Assembly: GCA_944321125.1 (NCBI GenBank)
Contig: CALUKD010000004.1
Location: forward strand, 1-64,000
Direction of reading: 5' to 3'
Source: Candidatus Butyricimonas faecavium
Lineage (GTDB): Bacteria; Bacteroidota; Bacteroidia; Bacteroidales; Marinifilaceae
DNA: 64,000 nucleotides
Shown here piece after piece: positions 54,883 to 62,962 of this stretch. The notes below the pieces were generated by a model. The model did not search any database. It was not told the DNA's origin and saw only the letters and a list, made by a program, of their open reading frames with translations. Numbering within the stretch: the first letter of the stretch is position 1; each line of letters begins with the position of its first letter. A program made the translations under genes and the position numbers.

Positions 54883-55061
54883 CGCCGAAGACGAATCACA
54901 AGTTGGCAGGTCACAAGTTACAGCTTCTTTCATCTTTTATCTTTTAGTTTTTATCCTCCCATCCCCCCTTACACAAAGAGAGATTAGAAGGGATCATCCG
55001 CTCTAAATTCTAAAATAATCTTCCGGGAAGTCTGTAAAACGAAATTCAGCTTGTATTATAA

Positions 55062-55192
55062 CTCTTTCCCTCCGCCGGCATTACCCGGATCAGGTTCATG
55101 GGTATAATCTCAGCCCGTTGTATTAACCTGCCGTTCTCGTGGCAGGCAGAAGTGTCGGGAAAAATCCCTTGCTTCTTAGGCACCCCTTCAGA
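55062..55192 (-). promoter_or_regulatory. TPP riboswitch (THI element)
   Basis: On the minus strand the conserved parts appear in order: GGGGTGCC (P1/P2 junction), a long P3 arm with TGCCTGCCACGAGAACGGCA, CTGAGATTATACCC, then GAACCTGATCCGGGTAATGC and CCGGCGGAGGGA. This is the thiamin pyrophosphate aptamer. It ends about 180 bp before the thiS start, so control is probably by transcription attenuation or by masking thiS translation; a clear terminator in the spacer was not identified. It should repress the whole thi operon when TPP is plentiful. Confidence 0.96.
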
Positions 55193-55194
55193 AT

Positions 55195-55489
55195 ATTTCA
55201 CGACAAAACTACGGATAATTTTTAAGACCTGCAATGACTGACTTCAAAAAGTAGCGGGTTACATTTTTAAAAAGGAAACATAAAAAAATGTAGGTTTGTT
55301 TTTGTTAATTATAGAAATATGTTTAAATTGTGGAAAAATAATACAATCATAAAATACTATAATAGGTGATACAGGAGGGGTGTCAATACGATTAGTAAAA
55401 TAACATAAGTTTTGGAAGTTGCAAAAATAGAATTTTGATATTGTCGATTATAGAGTTGTTAGAAATTTTGTTGTATTCAAATCAACGTT
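55195..55489. other. AT-rich spacer
   Basis: Nearly 300 bp with no gene. It must contain the promoter of the minus-strand thi operon and possibly one for the plus-strand genes to the right. A TACATTTTT/AAAAATGTA inverted repeat lies around 55262-55294. Confidence 0.5.
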
Positions 55490-55710
55490 ATGAAAAGGAA
55501 GGTCGTTTTTAGTTATTTAAGGTCCAGTATTTTTTTTATTTTGGTCATATTCTTATCTTGTAATGACGATTACATGGGCATGACGTGCAAATAGAAAAAT
55601 GGGATAAGATAGGGAAAGCTTTCATGGATTATTTACAATCCAGTTCCGATGGAATAATCCGATACAAATGTATGTTTATGGTCCGGACAGAAGAGCAACA
55701 TCTTAAATAA
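55490..55710 (+). pseudogene. Frameshifted small lipoprotein
   Basis: ATG 55490 opens a 34-codon frame, MKRKVVFSYLRSSIFFILVI then FLSCNDDYMG, a good lipoprotein signal, which stops at TAG 55592-55594. In the neighbouring frame the reading continues DVQIEKWDKIGKAFMDYLQS to TAA 55708-55710. A single-base insertion near 55575 would restore one ~73-codon gene. I do not recognise the family. Its 3-prime end overlaps the leader shared by the three tandem genes. Confidence 0.55.
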
Positions 55711-55719
55711 TATATAAAG

Positions 55720-56271
55720 ATGAAAAAACTGAAATTCATATCATTCATCGTGTTTTGTCTCTTGGGAATCAATCGTATGGCATGTTCTCAAGAACAAGAC
55801 ACGGTAATCATTAAGGACAGCATCGCGAAAATGAAACTTGACAAGAAACTGATCAAGTTGGCGAAGCAGGTCGTGTTGAAGCATGGACCGGAGTATTACC
55901 GGGAATACCGGGAACCTGTTATCAGGTATAGGCGAGTATCTAAAGGATGGAGCGATCTTCATATAGAGTATGTAAAGGCCTATGCGGGACAAGTGTTTTA
56001 CACCGTGGAATATCCTTACAACGAGGAAGAAGAGAGATTCTATACCGATTATTCCGCGAAAGTCTATTTCCTGGAAGACTTGACTATTTTTCACGTTTCG
56101 TTCGGCCATTGCATGGGCATTAAAGATTACAACAAGCTATCCCGCGCGGAAAAAAACAAGATTCGTATCCCGTACATTCAACGTAGACCGGGTAAATGGG
56201 TGCGGGACACCATCCGGGATGATAACGGCAACGTGATTGATATTATGAATCGTTACGAGGAGCCTGAATGA
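55720..56271 (+). CDS. Tandem secreted-protein paralogue 1 (unknown function)
   Basis: First of three near-identical genes (183 aa). A signal segment (FISFIVFCLLGINRMACSQ) is followed by a Lys-rich helix (DSIAKMKLDKKLIKLAKQVV), a Tyr/Arg-rich segment (HGPEYYREYREPVIRYRRVS), a beta-rich centre (AGQVFYTVEYPY, AKVYFLEDLTIFHVSFGH) and a basic end (IPYIQRRPGKWVRDTIRDDN). No known family is recognised. The first ~75 residues and last ~45 are almost the same in all three copies at the DNA level, while residues ~76-138 vary. The shared unit begins only 18 bp upstream of ATG, at CTTAAATAATATATAAA, so no private promoter is copied with it. Confidence 0.8.
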   Translation: MKKLKFISFIVFCLLGINRMACSQEQDTVIIKDSIAKMKLDKKLIKLAKQVVLKHGPEYYREYREPVIRYRRVSKGWSDLHIEYVKAYAGQVFYTVEYPYNEEEERFYTDYSAKVYFLEDLTIFHVSFGHCMGIKDYNKLSRAEKNKIRIPYIQRRPGKWVRDTIRDDNGNVIDIMNRYEEPE

Positions 56272-56282
56272 GGTGCGGGCAG

Positions 56283-56393
56283 GATTCCCCACAGGTGTTT
56301 TTTCATGTCTACACGCCTGTTGGCACGGGAAGTGACGCCTTCCTTTTCAGCAGCTCCCGTTGTTCCGTCCACCCGGAGCGGTTTGTCCGGCAC
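56283..56393 (-). pseudogene. C-terminal fragment of an MGMT-type alkyltransferase
   Basis: The reverse complement reads AGQTAPG, (one base lost) WTEQRELLK, (one base lost) EGVTSRANRRVDMKKHLWGI, matching residues ~65-103 of the intact protein at 60659-60982 and about three quarters of its bases. Similarity stops at the paralogue 1 stop codon on the left and exactly at the leader of paralogue 2 on the right. Confidence 0.85.
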
Positions 56394-56411
56394 CTTAAAT
56401 AATATATAAAA

Positions 56412-56966
56412 ATGGAAAAACTGAAATTCATATCATTCATCGTGCTTTGTCTCTTGGGAATCAATCGTATGGCATGTTCTCAAGAACAAGACACGGTAAT
56501 CATTAAGGACAGCATCGCGAAAATGAAACTTGACAAGAAACTGATCAAGTTGGCGAAGCAGGTCGTGTTGAAGCATGGACCGGAGTATTACCGGGAATAC
56601 CGGGAACCTGTTATCAGGTACAGGCGAGTATCTAAAGCATGGAACGATCTTCATCTGACGTATGTAGAGGCCCACGCGGGACAAGTGTATTACACCGTGG
56701 AATATCCTTACAACAAGGAAGAAGAGAGATTCTTCACCTCTTTTTCCGCGAAAGTTTATTTCTGGGAAGACTTGACCGTTTTTCACGTTTCGTTCGGCCA
56801 CGGCATGGGCATTAGAGATTACGACAAGTTATCCCGCGCGGAAAAAAACAAGATTCGAATCCCGTACATACAGCGTAGACCGGGTAAATGGGTGCGAGAC
56901 ACCATCCGGGACGATAACGGCAACATCATTGAAATTATGAATCGTTACGAGGAGCCTCCTGAATGA
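56412..56966 (+). CDS. Tandem secreted-protein paralogue 2 (unknown function)
   Basis: 184 aa, same layout as the first copy: MEKLKFISFI signal, identical Lys-rich and Tyr/Arg-rich segments, then a divergent centre (KAWNDLHLTYVEAHAGQVYY; FFTSFSAKVYFWEDLTVFHV) and the same basic end. Its unit, from CTTAAAT at 56394 to the TGA at 56964, lies between the C-terminal and N-terminal parts of an alkyltransferase pseudogene that is read on the opposite strand. It therefore seems to have entered or been copied into that gene. Confidence 0.8.
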   Translation: MEKLKFISFIVLCLLGINRMACSQEQDTVIIKDSIAKMKLDKKLIKLAKQVVLKHGPEYYREYREPVIRYRRVSKAWNDLHLTYVEAHAGQVYYTVEYPYNKEEERFFTSFSAKVYFWEDLTVFHVSFGHGMGIRDYDKLSRAEKNKIRIPYIQRRPGKWVRDTIRDDNGNIIEIMNRYEEPPE

Positions 56967-57056
56967 GGGGAGGCATTTGCCGGGTGATCTCGTGCGCTTT
57001 ACCGGTAAAATTCCCATGCCCGTCTCGTGTTTTCGGCGTGAAGGTGGAAAATTTCG
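56967..57056 (-). pseudogene. N-terminal fragment and leader of an MGMT-type alkyltransferase
   Basis: The reverse complement aligns with 60920-61020: shared leader GAAATTTTC..CTT.AC.CC.AAAA, an ATG, and CACGAGATCACCCGGCAAAT coding for EITRQIP/M, with a ~16-bp deletion after the start codon. Together with 56283-56393 it accounts for both ends of one gene in the correct order; only codons ~22-63, including the PCHR catalytic motif, are missing, and paralogue 2 stands in their place. Confidence 0.82.
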
Positions 57057-57072
57057 CAAATAATATATAAAG

Positions 57073-57624
57073 ATGGTAAAACTGAAATTCATATCATTCA
57101 TCGTGCTTTGTCTCTTGGGAATCAATCGTATGGCATGTTCTCAAGAACAAGACACGGTAATCATTAAGGACAGCATCGCGAAAATGAAACTTGACAAGAA
57201 ACTGATCAAGTTGGCGAAGCAGGTCGTGTTGAAGCATGGACCGGAGTATTACCGGGAATACCGGGAACCTGTTATCAGGTACAGGCGAGTATCTAAAGCA
57301 TGGAGTGATCTTTTTCCAGAGCTTATAGAGGCCCATGCGGGACAAGTGTTTTACACCGTGGAATATCCTTATAACAAGGAAGAAGAGATATTCTATACCG
57401 ATTTTTCCGCGAAAGTCTATTTCTGGGGAGACTTGACCGTTTTTCACGTTTCGTTCGGCCACTACATGGGTATTAAGGATTACGACAAGCTATCCCGTGC
57501 GGAAAAAAACAAGATTCGTATCCCGTACATTCAGCGTAGACCGGGTAAATGGGTGCGAGACACCATCCGGGATGATAACGGCAACATCATTGAAATTATG
57601 AATCGTTACGAGGATTATGAATAG
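57073..57624 (+). CDS. Tandem secreted-protein paralogue 3 (unknown function)
   Basis: 183 aa, third copy. The start MVKLKFISFI and the next ~70 residues equal copy 2 apart from position 2; the variable centre reads KAWSDLFPELIEAHAGQVFY and FYTDFSAKVYFWGDLTVFHV, and the end IIEIMNRYEDYE differs only in the last residues. Its shared leader starts at AAATAATATATAAA (57058), three bases shorter than in the other copies, directly after the alkyltransferase leader fragment. A degenerate terminator-like repeat follows at 57677. Confidence 0.8.
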   Translation: MVKLKFISFIVLCLLGINRMACSQEQDTVIIKDSIAKMKLDKKLIKLAKQVVLKHGPEYYREYREPVIRYRRVSKAWSDLFPELIEAHAGQVFYTVEYPYNKEEEIFYTDFSAKVYFWGDLTVFHVSFGHYMGIKDYDKLSRAEKNKIRIPYIQRRPGKWVRDTIRDDNGNIIEIMNRYEDYE

Positions 57625-57761: not shown

Positions 57762-58580
57762 CTAAAAATCTTTCCGGTACTCCGAGGGAGTTCGTTTCAA
57801 TCTTTTTTGCACGTAACGGCTGAAATAGGAGACGGAAGAAAAGTTTAACCGTTCGGCAATAGCCGTCAGGGAGAGTTCTTGTCGTCGCAACAGGCGGATA
57901 ATCTCTTGAAGAGTAAAACGATCAATCCAGTAACTGGCCGGTCGACCGCTTACTTTCCGGCATATCTCCGACAGGTAATGCGGGGTGATACAAAGTTCGG
58001 AAGCATAAAAGTCAAGATCGCGGTTCCGGGTATATTCACCTTTATATAATAGCTCGATAAACTTCCGTAACAAAGAGGCCGTGTGTTCCGATACTTGCAA
58101 GGTCCCTTTTCCCCGTGCGTGGATGTCGTAAAGGTCGAGGATATGTGCTGTCAACAGGCTACCCAGCAACTCTTCCCGGAAAAGATGTTTTTTATCTTCC
58201 AAGCGTTTGCGGATATACAACATGGCTTCCCGGCACACGTGGAAATCACGGGAGGAAAGTTGCATGACCGGGTTCTGCAAGAGCGACAAGTGGCCGATGA
58301 TACCATAATTGCTACGGATGGCGATCGAGGTTACGAACGCGTCCGAAAGGCTCATCAGTATGCCCCGGAAATCGTCAGATTCCGTGAATCCCGCCACGAG
58401 AGCCGGGTTGGGCAGGATGACATAATCCTTTGTCGCGATATTGTAGCGGGTTTCTTGAAACGTGAATCCCATGTTACCCTCTTGGCAAAGGATATGGGTG
58501 ATCCGTCCCGCGTACTGCAAGGAGTTATAATCCTGTAACGTGTCGGTAAAAATGATACCGTCGAATTCTACCTGTTCCAT
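57762..58580 (-). CDS. AraC-family transcriptional regulator
   Basis: A 272-aa regulator. The N-terminal ~160 residues look like a cupin-type sensor (THILCQEGNMGFTFQETRYN, DYVILPNPALVAGF); the C-terminal ~100 form the two-HTH AraC DNA-binding domain (LDFYASELCITPHYLSEICR, RRQELSLTAIAERLNFSSVS, YFSRYVQKRLKRTPSEYRKD). It is divergent from two aldo/keto reductase genes with a 126-bp shared control region, the classical arrangement for a regulator of those genes. The effector is unknown. Confidence 0.93.
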   Translation of the reverse strand: MEQVEFDGIIFTDTLQDYNSLQYAGRITHILCQEGNMGFTFQETRYNIATKDYVILPNPALVAGFTESDDFRGILMSLSDAFVTSIAIRSNYGIIGHLSLLQNPVMQLSSRDFHVCREAMLYIRKRLEDKKHLFREELLGSLLTAHILDLYDIHARGKGTLQVSEHTASLLRKFIELLYKGEYTRNRDLDFYASELCITPHYLSEICRKVSGRPASYWIDRFTLQEIIRLLRRQELSLTAIAERLNFSSVSYFSRYVQKRLKRTPSEYRKDF

Positions 58581-60557: not shown

Positions 60558-60610
60558 ACCCCGTGCAGTTGGAGTTTAAAGTTTAAAATTAGCACGGGGT
60601 TCGTTTTTTT
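60558..60610 (+). terminator. Terminator-type hairpin repeat after the reductase operon
   Basis: ACCCCGTGC (60558-60566) pairs perfectly with GCACGGGGT (60592-60600), followed by TCGTTTTTTT. It is the most complete member of the four-copy family at 43326, 50742, 57677 and here. Confidence 0.8.
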
Positions 60611-60658
60611 GAAAATTCTAAATTGTCTTTGGGGGTAAGTTCTTTTTCAAGTTACAAG

Positions 60659-60982
60659 TTACAGTTCGCGAACGAGCAAAATTTCCCACAAGTGCTTTTT
60701 CATATCCACTCGGCCGTTAACCCGGAAGGTAACGCCCTCGCGTTTGAGCAAAGTACGTTGTCCGGGCCATCCCGGGGCGGTCTGTCCGGCACTGTTCACG
60801 ACCCGATGGCAGGGTAGCGTGTCATCGTTCGGGGATTGTGCCATCGCTCGGCCTACCCACCGGGCATATTGCGGTCGTCCCGCCAGCGCGGCGATCTTGC
60901 CATACGTGAGCACTTTCCCCCGCGGTATTTGCCGGGTGATCTCGTACACTTCTTCGAAAAATTCCTGTAACGCTTCGTCCAT
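60659..60982 (-). CDS. MGMT-family alkyltransferase (short form)
   Basis: A 107-aa protein consisting only of the methylated-DNA-cysteine methyltransferase DNA-binding domain. It keeps the acceptor motif PCHRVV (Cys58), the Tyr/Arg helix segment (LTYGKIAALAGRPQYARWVG), VNSAGQTAPGWPGQ and the end VDMKKHLW. The Escherichia coli homologue of this size (YbaZ/Atl) has Trp in place of the Cys and only binds alkylated DNA; having the Cys means this one could be catalytic. A pseudogene of a close relative lies split among the tandem genes at 56283-57056. Confidence 0.92.
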   Translation of the reverse strand: MDEALQEFFEEVYEITRQIPRGKVLTYGKIAALAGRPQYARWVGRAMAQSPNDDTLPCHRVVNSAGQTAPGWPGQRTLLKREGVTFRVNGRVDMKKHLWEILLVREL

Positions 60983-61018
60983 ACGTATTTTGTATTTTGG
61001 GAGTAAAGATAGAAAATT

Positions 61019-61735
61019 TCATGGGAATAACAATTTATGCGGTTCTTTGATTTTAGCGGGAGCGAGGAAATACTCGTTCGGGGAGAATGCCTTGTTCGTC
61101 ACGTTGCCGAAAAACGGGTAGACGTGCAACGTTTCGCCTTCCTTGGCCTGAACCGTGAAGGAGGCCGTGCCCCCGGCTCTCGTGGCAGACGTTCCGTGAA
61201 GGAGCATCAGCGCGTCGGGGCGTGTCGTGCCGATAACCATGACGTGAATGATGTCCGATGGCAGTGCCGATGCCGAGTTCCGTTTGTCGTTCCACGCGAG
61301 GGTGATAACGTTCTCTTGTCGGGTCATCGTCATGTCGAGTGGAAGCAGTAGTGAACCGTCACTGACCATGAAATGCTTGAAATCTTCCACCTCGCCCAGT
61401 TTATTCACGCACCCGTGATTCATCCGGTGGCGGTAGCTGTCGGAGGTTTGGCTATTTCCCGTCCGGTACTCGGCGGCGTGTTTCCACACGGGAAGCCCTT
61501 CATAAGCCTCTTTCATGTGGGAACTCATGTATCTGGCCCCGGAAAAATCACCGTTCGATTTGATCCGCTTTTCCGTGCGTTCCCAGTTTTTCCCGGAGGT
61601 GGCATCAGTGACCCTGCGATAAGAAACTTTTCCCATCCTCAAAAAGAAAATAAGGTTATCTACACGTATGCTTTTCATTCCGCTCGCGAGCAGGTAGTAG
61701 ATTAAAGATTGGTTCATATATTCTTTAATTTTCAC
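61019..61735 (-). CDS. DUF6266-like protein A
   Basis: A 238-aa protein. A start further in (ATG 61678 or 61636) is possible, since the family N-terminus seems to begin near GMKSIRVDN..MGKVSYRR. The C-terminal half is beta-rich: DFKHFMVSDGSLLLPLDMTM, NVITLAWNDKRNSASALPSD, IIHVMVIGTTRPDALMLLHG, LHVYPFFGNVTNKAFSPNEY. The order of these blocks parallels the gene at 62297, so the two are divergent relatives facing away from each other. Family name is by resemblance to DUF6266 proteins of Bacteroidota; function unknown. Its 3-prime end lies 36 bp before the MGMT gene. Confidence 0.65.
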   Translation of the reverse strand: MKIKEYMNQSLIYYLLASGMKSIRVDNLIFFLRMGKVSYRRVTDATSGKNWERTEKRIKSNGDFSGARYMSSHMKEAYEGLPVWKHAAEYRTGNSQTSDSYRHRMNHGCVNKLGEVEDFKHFMVSDGSLLLPLDMTMTRQENVITLAWNDKRNSASALPSDIIHVMVIGTTRPDALMLLHGTSATRAGGTASFTVQAKEGETLHVYPFFGNVTNKAFSPNEYFLAPAKIKEPHKLLFP

Positions 61736-62296
61736 AAGTATAATATTATTTTTACTATTAACAAAATATTTGAGATTAATATTTCAAAATAATACCTATA
61801 TAGTAAAATAATGGTTTTTAACAATTGTATCCATAATTGGATCTTTATACTCTACTATTGGATGATGTATTATTTCCTCTCTCGCATTTTTATTAATTAA
61901 CATTTATTACACAACCTCTCCACCTGTATATCACAGGTGAGGGAGTGATCATGAACAGGTGGAGGAGTGGTGGAGAGCAAAAAGGTTAAGTACGATTCTA
62001 GTGTATTGTAGGAGCGGCGTGGGATGAGATATGGTAGGGAATGTATGCTTTTACAATATGTTAATTGTTTTTCTGTCGTTGGATTGTTAAAAATATACTC
62101 CAAAGTTGTAATATATGTAATATAATTATAAATTATCTTTAAAAATTTTCTTGTTTTTCCTTGGTTTTGCTATTATAAAGTTGTAGTATTGCAAATGTAA
62201 ATAATGACATAATTATCATTATTTGATACCTACTAACAATCCCCTTTTTTTCGGGGGTGGGACAAATTGAATAAAATTAATTTAAAAAGAAGAATT
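61736..62296. other. AT-rich divergent spacer between the DUF6266-like genes
   Basis: 560 bp with no gene I can support. It has a short hairpin CACCTGT (61921-61927)/ACAGGTG (61933-61939) with a further ACAGGTGG copy at 61956, and a 68-codon minus-strand frame (62103-61897) that looks fortuitous. It probably holds both promoters. Confidence 0.5.
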
Positions 62297-62962
62297 ATGG
62301 CTGAAATGAAGTCAGACTTAGCAAGTGAACTCCATGGAAAGATTGGAGATAAGTTGTATCGTACCCTTGCCACGGGTAAAATCCTAGTGACCCCGCCCTC
62401 GAAAGAGCCAACTTTCGTTGATGAGAAAGACAGGGATGATCGTGATACGCGCATGAAAGGATATGGCGGTAGCGGTCATTTCGCCTCGGTTGTGAATGAC
62501 GCGATCAAGATCGGTTTCCCCCGGGAGAAAAGAGGGGAGCAACCGTTGGGGAAATTCATGCAGTATAACGCCAAGACGCTGTGCAAGTCCGCGAAAAACG
62601 AGAAGGGCGAGTTGGTAAGGGTGTATGATTTCAAAAAGATGGTCGTGGCTGCCGGGAATCTTCTCCGGGCGAATGTGACCGTGGCGTTTGACAAGGCTAC
62701 CGGTGTTTTTACCTTCACGCAAGAGGCCGATTCGCGTGGGGGAACCCGTGCCAACCCGAATGACAGGGTTTACGCGTTGATTATTGACGGGGTAAACGAG
62801 GATGCCGAGTTCATGTTGCTGAGAGAACGGAGTGAAAGTGGCGGGACGAGTTTTAGCGTGCCTGAATGGTGGGACAAAGAAAATCTTTTCGTTTACGTTT
62901 TCGCGGGAACCCGCACGAAGAAGAAAGCATCGCCTTCCATTTGCCTGTATCCGGCAGAATAA
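62297..62962 (+). CDS. DUF6266-like protein B
   Basis: About 221 aa from ATG 62297 (MAEMKSDLASELHGKIGDKL); a TTG at 62267 would add ten residues. Blocks resembling those of protein A follow in order: GKIGDKLYRTLATGKI, FKKMVVAAGNLLRANVTVAF, VFTFTQEADSRGG, DRVYALIIDGVNEDAEFML, ENLFVYVFAGTRTKKKASPS. Members of this group are common, secretion-signal-free proteins in gut Bacteroidota, sometimes next to mobile genes. Function unknown. Ended by a strong terminator at 62970. Confidence 0.68.
   Translation: MAEMKSDLASELHGKIGDKLYRTLATGKILVTPPSKEPTFVDEKDRDDRDTRMKGYGGSGHFASVVNDAIKIGFPREKRGEQPLGKFMQYNAKTLCKSAKNEKGELVRVYDFKKMVVAAGNLLRANVTVAFDKATGVFTFTQEADSRGGTRANPNDRVYALIIDGVNEDAEFMLLRERSESGGTSFSVPEWWDKENLFVYVFAGTRTKKKASPSICLYPAE

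Follow-up and report, generated by a model that had tools for sequence, protein, structure and literature searches.

Scraps of an alkyltransferase gene lie between tandem candidate immunity genes beside the remnant of a toxin-like lipoprotein gene in Candidatus Butyricimonas faecavium

In the first 64,000 nucleotides of contig CALUKD010000004.1 of Candidatus Butyricimonas faecavium (the window), three tandem paralogues (P1, P2, P3) are separated by scraps of an MGMT-type alkyltransferase gene, and the scraps beside P2 are confirmed as a real feature. P1-P3 are likely immunity genes left by a lost toxin-like lipoprotein partner (LP). We give about an even chance to the view that they are this lipoprotein's immunity genes and that the array grew as blocks of a P gene and a piece of MGMT were added before the older P gene, at the LP stop codon. 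This stepwise addition at the front is favoured over a single MGMT gene split by an inserted P2, which we judge the less probable of the two. The features of the locus are as follows.

55049..55197, minus strand: TPP riboswitch of thiC/thiS, anchoring the locus on its left (Rfam RF00059)
55490..55698, plus strand: toxin-like lipoprotein gene LP, remnant only (blastn against intact LP, genome G001)
55720..56271, plus strand: P1, candidate immunity protein of 183 aa, signal-like helix at the N-terminus (ORF; 89% identity to P2)
56253..56393, minus strand: MGMT scrap, C-terminal part, reading ...DMKKHLWGILPAPHSGSS (alignment to intact MGMT)
56394..56411, plus strand: leader of the P2 unit (CTTAA, the LP stop-codon context)
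56412..56966, plus strand: P2, 184 aa, candidate immunity protein with tail GAGCCTCCTGAATGA (ORF)
56972..57055, minus strand: MGMT scrap with leader, start codon and codons to ~20 (alignment; 13-nt deletion after ATG)
57073..57624, plus strand: P3, 183 aa, tail EDYE* (ORF)
57762..58580, minus strand: AraC-type regulator, right neighbour (Pfam HTH_18)
60659..60982, minus strand: intact MGMT-type gene, 107 aa, PCHR present (PF01035, 90.3 bits; TIGR00589, 56.1 bits, above cut-off)

The gene order in the window is thiS-LP remnant-P1-scrap-P2-scrap-P3-AraC-AKR1-AKR2-intact MGMT (AKR names given by eye), with the intact MGMT ~3.6 kb to the right of the scraps. The riboswitch returned no match when Rfam was searched at the gathering threshold; its score of 50.8 bits (E = 2.4e-8) narrowly missed the gathering score of 54.3, and the surrounding region (~55001-55238) shares 89-91% identity with G001, G003 and G004. 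A 50-nt intergenic repeat containing AGCACGGGGTTCGTTTTTTT occurs after P3 (57697-57746) and before the end of the intact MGMT (60569-60618), the two copies being 84% identical. Two DUF6266-like genes adjoin the intact MGMT (61019-61735 and 62267-62962), the second scoring below the Pfam cut-off.

The initial annotation had described the spacers flanking P2 as complementary C- and N-terminal pieces of an MGMT gene, arranged in the order of one gene, and pointed to an intact relative at 60659-60982. Alignment of the spacers to this intact gene bore out the description, both fragments scoring well above shuffled and random-piece controls. The left spacer (56276-56393) matched 60673-60792 with 88/120 columns identical and a score of 52, whereas the controls reached at most 16 (2000 dinucleotide shuffles) and 18 (2000 random pieces of the window); the right spacer (56972-57055) matched 60924-61020 with a score of 27, against control maxima of 17 and 18, respectively. 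The left scrap was also found in a protein search of the genome (68% over 25 aa, E = 6.7e-5). When the whole window was scanned in 20-base steps and both orientations, excluding the intact gene, the ten best scores all fell in these two spacers. The part of the intact gene absent between the scraps was 60793-60923, a stretch of 131 bp (~codons 21-63) that includes the PCHR active site. Signs of decay comprise two 1-nt deletions in the C-terminal part and the 13-nt deletion just after the ATG, and the reading frame of the left scrap stops at a codon antisense to the end of P1.

The P2 unit, as had also been proposed, lies flush with both scraps: the shared unit begins at 56394 (CTTAAAT), immediately after the left MGMT match, and the TGA ends at 56966, five bases ahead of the right match. 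No target duplication was seen by eye at these borders. The further proposal that P2 was inserted into a working MGMT gene holds up in part. The complementary scraps, the loss of the active site and the flush borders bear it out, as do the lack of a tyrosine integrase match on the contig and the MGMT gene at this address in G001, G002 and G003; insertion into a single working gene is a possible reading of them. The P2 unit does look like a compact cassette without a promoter, but its border on the left falls at the point where LP joins P. The LP-end start of P2 and its tail with two CCT are equally compatible with the alternative given in the same annotation, in which a separate piece of MGMT lies behind each of two P copies.

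The sequence ahead of P1 is the LP end (..CATCTTAAAT), that ahead of P2 is MGMT (..GGCAC/CTTAAAT, the slash marking the joint), and that ahead of P3 is the MGMT leader (..TTTCG/CAAATAAT). The left joints next to MGMT (codon 64/CTTAAAT and leader/AAATAAT) fall within 3 bases of one point in the P leader, and at their right ends all three P units diverge within ~3 bases of the stop codon. At its start, P2 carries CCTTAAAT, in agreement with the LP end in both G001 and G010. Since CCTTAAA stands at the LP end of these two genomes, the first bases of P2 are likely LP-derived; this origin rests on few letters, as G018 and G028 lack CCTTAAA and the LP end in the window itself reads TCTTAAA. By eye, GCGG is common to the P1/MGMT border (TGAGGTGCGGGCA) and the codon-20 region of MGMT (GCGGTATTT in the intact gene), and on one reading a deletion between such GCGG-like repeats would leave nearly what follows P2. 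We also considered that a complete P-MGMT unit had been duplicated, leaving one joint only, and rejected this because the two MGMT/P joints differ and P3 is without the LP-end bases of P2.

The gene ends suggest that MGMT and P have been tail-to-tail neighbours. Four of the 109 MGMT relatives (P0044, P0045, P0046 and P0140 (98 aa)) end in ...APHSGGSS, and another, P0130, ends in ...FPHGRGSSE. Read antisense, the end of the P2 gene gives PHSGGSS followed by a stop, exactly as in the four MGMT proteins, so that an MGMT gene overlapping a P gene tail-to-tail likely exists in other strains. Read in the same way, the end of P1 yields PHSGSS, and this lies in the frame of the left scrap. Because both tails read as an MGMT-like end, both tail types likely once had an MGMT neighbour. 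The tail of P3 (EDYE*) is unlike those of P1 and P2, and its antisense reading lacks PHSGSS.

The position of MGMT was compared among five sister genomes. MGMT lies beside the thiS riboswitch in three of them (G001, G002 and G003), ~42-44 bp from the thiS leader region, and no P gene is present at that place; the scraps thus appear to stand at an old MGMT address. The order in G004 is thiS-AraC-AKR1-MGMT, so AraC and the next gene lie between thiS and MGMT, and in G005 MGMT is >5 kb from thiS. Over the same columns the left scrap is 80% identical to the MGMT of G001 and G003, 71% to the intact gene of its own genome and 68% to G004, so it did not arise by recent copying of the intact gene. The right scrap, which is shorter, scored highest against its own intact gene (27), followed by G003 (21), G001 (20) and G004 (18), with 15 and 11 in the remaining comparisons. 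These values hint at two sources for the scraps, weakly so as both scraps are short. The intact MGMT is near the same translation-GTPase gene as in G001 and G003, so either MGMT copy could be native. The named proteins nearest to P2 (88-90% identical) are labelled B. virosa.

P1 and P2 are 89% identical, and the three copies are 89-92% identical at the protein level. P genes were found in 5/59 relatives searched, counting the genome itself (G076 is outside those 59), and in two of the six genomes of the genus on the same count, the copy in G001 lying at a different place. Tandem copies, all of one family, number three in the window, seven in G010 and two in G028. Among named genome contigs the sole relative locus found was in Sanguibacteroides (L040); viral contigs contained no relative in a protein search and no match to the P2 tail pattern, and plasmids (searched in 'near' mode) gave no match. 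No Pfam, NCBIfam or PADLOC family matched P above noise. The predicted-fold search, for which the alignment (A1) comprised 12 of the 31 database relatives of P and 6 sequences from genomes, returned no PDB match at E<=0.001 (71 at E<=10), and no credible match came from profile searches against PDB sequences.

The three copies differ unevenly along their length. Codons 1-73 are almost identical (pS 0-0.02, pN 0.01-0.02), most of the amino-acid differences fall in codons 74-137 (pN 0.11-0.12, pS 0.16-0.21), and in codons 138-181 the differences are mostly silent. In 20-codon windows, pN exceeded pS at codons 1-20, at codons 81-100 (0.174 versus 0.141) and at the last few codons, all from small numbers, and pN was below pS in 9/9 windows of the G010 genes. 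With so few such windows among P1-P3 and none among the G010 copies, these data make no case for positive selection. The motif MACSQ is common to P1-P3 and absent from the P proteins P0001-P0004 and from G001. Together with the nearly identical 5' ends it points to copying or gene conversion within the genome, with no need of import. The seven tandem P genes of G010 (L016, 5836-9558) have two alternating start types and spacers (an 8-bp overlap or an 11-bp gap) and look as if dimers had been amplified. P2 contains a run of seven A (56842-56848), and by eye P0005 resembles P2 minus one A, from either sequencing error or slippage.

The remnant ahead of P1 provides the link to LP. It consists of approximately the first 54 codons of LP, an internal deletion of ~1490 bp (G001 coordinates), and the last codons with the stop (tcTTAA). 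By blastn, 55490-55653 matched L015 6366-6530 of G001 (81%) and the sequence from 55652 matched L015 from 8021 onward; the protein match (E = 1.9e-11) contains an internal stop. A search of the genome found no intact LP, and so P1-P3 would be orphan immunity-like genes. LP was found in 7/56 genomes of the family, of which this genome has the remnant and G002 the N-terminal part only. All five relatives that keep the LP C-terminus (G001, G010, G018, G028 and G076) have P-like genes adjoining LP, the LP of G076 being broken into several frames. Relative to G003 and the genome studied here, the LP-P pair of G001 (L015, 6241-8737) is an insertion near an ftsH-like gene, flanked by an imperfect ~20 bp repeat that could be a target duplication or a shared promoter element; in G004 the right flank of the ftsH-like site is only partly alike.

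Genes at L061, L062 and L063 share the LP N-terminus (E = 5.6e-17, 2.6e-13 and 3.6e-7 to the LP of G001), and BLASTP found no match between their C-termini and that of LP or between their downstream genes and P. A common N-terminus combined with C-termini and downstream genes that change from gene to gene gives LP the look of a polymorphic toxin. The C-terminus of LP keeps E450, H508, H510, S527 and D530 in 8/8 aligned sequences, a JAB-like motif recognised by eye; Tox-JAB toxins, as PMC3482391 outlines them, carry E, H[ST]H, S and D. Pfam recognised no toxin domain, nor any other match, in the last 161 aa, and the whole LP returned only noise from Pfam, NCBIfam and PADLOC. The LP fold lists (Foldseek, VIA-align; alignment A2, with 6 of the 9 database relatives of LP and 2 sequences from genomes) were filled by the middle Ig-like domain, so that in effect this part alone was compared. 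We infer the toxin and immunity roles from the gene context and the motif. By eye, P of G018 is followed directly by another LP-like N-terminus (L018, 8473-8994; 173 aa), which has no C-terminal domain. In G002 (L063, 3148-4629) an LP-like N-terminus is joined to a C-terminus with weak similarity to zinc-dependent phospholipase C (PF00882, E = 0.0057, which misses the cut-off).

How the scraps came to lie between the P genes can be explained in several ways. Under the favoured front addition, each block would consist of one P gene and the piece of MGMT lying tail-to-tail behind it, and would enter at the LP stop codon, ahead of the older P gene. It would be supplied either by a tandem duplication in the same genome or by a related strain through recombination, as has been suggested in the literature for immunity-gene strings behind polymorphic toxins. 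On this view two MGMT copies or part-copies would have given rise to the scraps, one to the left scrap (behind P1) and the other to the right scrap (behind P2), and the piece behind P2 would later have lost its 3' part through the short GCGG-like repeat. The scraps may persist merely as spacers, as an intact MGMT lies nearby and, we propose, selection keeps the P genes. We prefer this reading because a single rule covers both left joints and because it fits the published view, put forward in PMC3482391, that strings of immunity genes are recombination remnants in which the new gene is placed ahead of the old. It has to reckon with scraps that do not overlap and form one gene in the right order, which a split gene gives for free; with an extra deletion that two copies demand, ending within 5 bases of the P2 stop codon; and with the absence of the LP-end match of P2 from G018, G028 and the LP end of the window. 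If the blocks are taken as an import of three alleles, the shared MACSQ and near-identical 5' ends again fit copying or conversion within the genome better.

A single MGMT at the old address might instead have been split, template switching or end-joining repair having put a copied P unit (CTTAAAT to stop+2) in place of the 131 bp. This is possible but less likely. The complementary, ordered scraps suit it, as do the one MGMT exactly at this address in G001, G002 and G003, the closeness of the left scrap to G001 and G003, and P units that have near-identical ends in different flanks. It requires, however, that the donor copy happened to be cut at the LP end and that an insertion with two ends, a rare event, took place, and it leaves unexplained both the left border of P3 at nearly the same point and the tail of P2, known from P genes that likely overlap MGMT. 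We think it improbable that a whole LP-P-MGMT block was imported by recombination at the thiS riboswitch, with the scraps as decayed hitch-hikers and the intact MGMT as the resident. The left scrap resembles P0048 and P0050, as well as the MGMT of G001 and G003, more than its own intact gene, the N-terminal extension of P0044 reads by eye like the translated upstream region of G003, and the order AraC-AKR1-MGMT recurs in G004. Yet such an import accounts for the source of the scraps and not for the joints, no end of the recombination was found on the right-hand side, the highest score of the right scrap is with the intact gene of its own genome, and the shared translation-GTPase neighbourhood lets either copy be native. 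An import of this kind can precede front addition or the splitting of a gene. Misjoined repeats, which the similarity of the three copies in a 48-contig draft might suggest, are a very improbable source of the array: each copy differs from the others at sites of its own and sits between unique flanks within a 250-kb contig, and P0005, the relative that by eye resembles P2 minus one A, is reported from three contigs of <=78,980 bases.

A broader reading that goes with front addition, and one we advance only tentatively, is that the LP stop codon and P leader form a repeatedly used entry point, where new immunity alleles arrive with downstream DNA of the donor, here MGMT. If so, scraps of host genes between array members would record the order and source of arrivals, and such arrivals would cost the host a DNA-repair gene. 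Unrelated scraps marking every joint would make the joints readable one by one. The locus also points to a toxin-like lipoprotein/P pair that is named by none of the profile libraries used, and this pair is the most useful lead from the locus.

Among known systems, the scraps and the intact gene belong to the MGMT/Ogt-type alkyltransferases (PF01035), the scraps being without the active site. LP shares with Tox-JAB-1 the E, HxH, S and D of its C-terminus. Reports of Tox-JAB-1 are confined to Bacteroidetes. The Imm65 that goes with it is a lipoprotein that is exported, and P is apparently exported too; in contrast, LP has no profile match, is itself lipoprotein-like, has no recognised RHS part, and is JAB-like in motif only. 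The rAID orphan-immunity arrays of gut Bacteroidales, as far as PMC12247911 describes them, are alike in their co-oriented, short immunity-like genes with several divergent copies per family. The present array falls outside their definition, since none of the 13 PF00589 (tyrosine integrase) matches in the genome lies on contig C4; it also holds one family only and adjoins an LP remnant. The mechanism by which rAID arrays gain copies is, according to the same source, not yet clear. The array also resembles the homogeneous polyimmunity loci, which in the account of PMC3482391 are, like the array in the window, tandem paralogues of one small family with or without a toxin gene, although P belongs to no described Pfam or NCBIfam family. 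The locus is a variant of this known polyimmunity type, set apart by the MGMT scraps that separate its copies.
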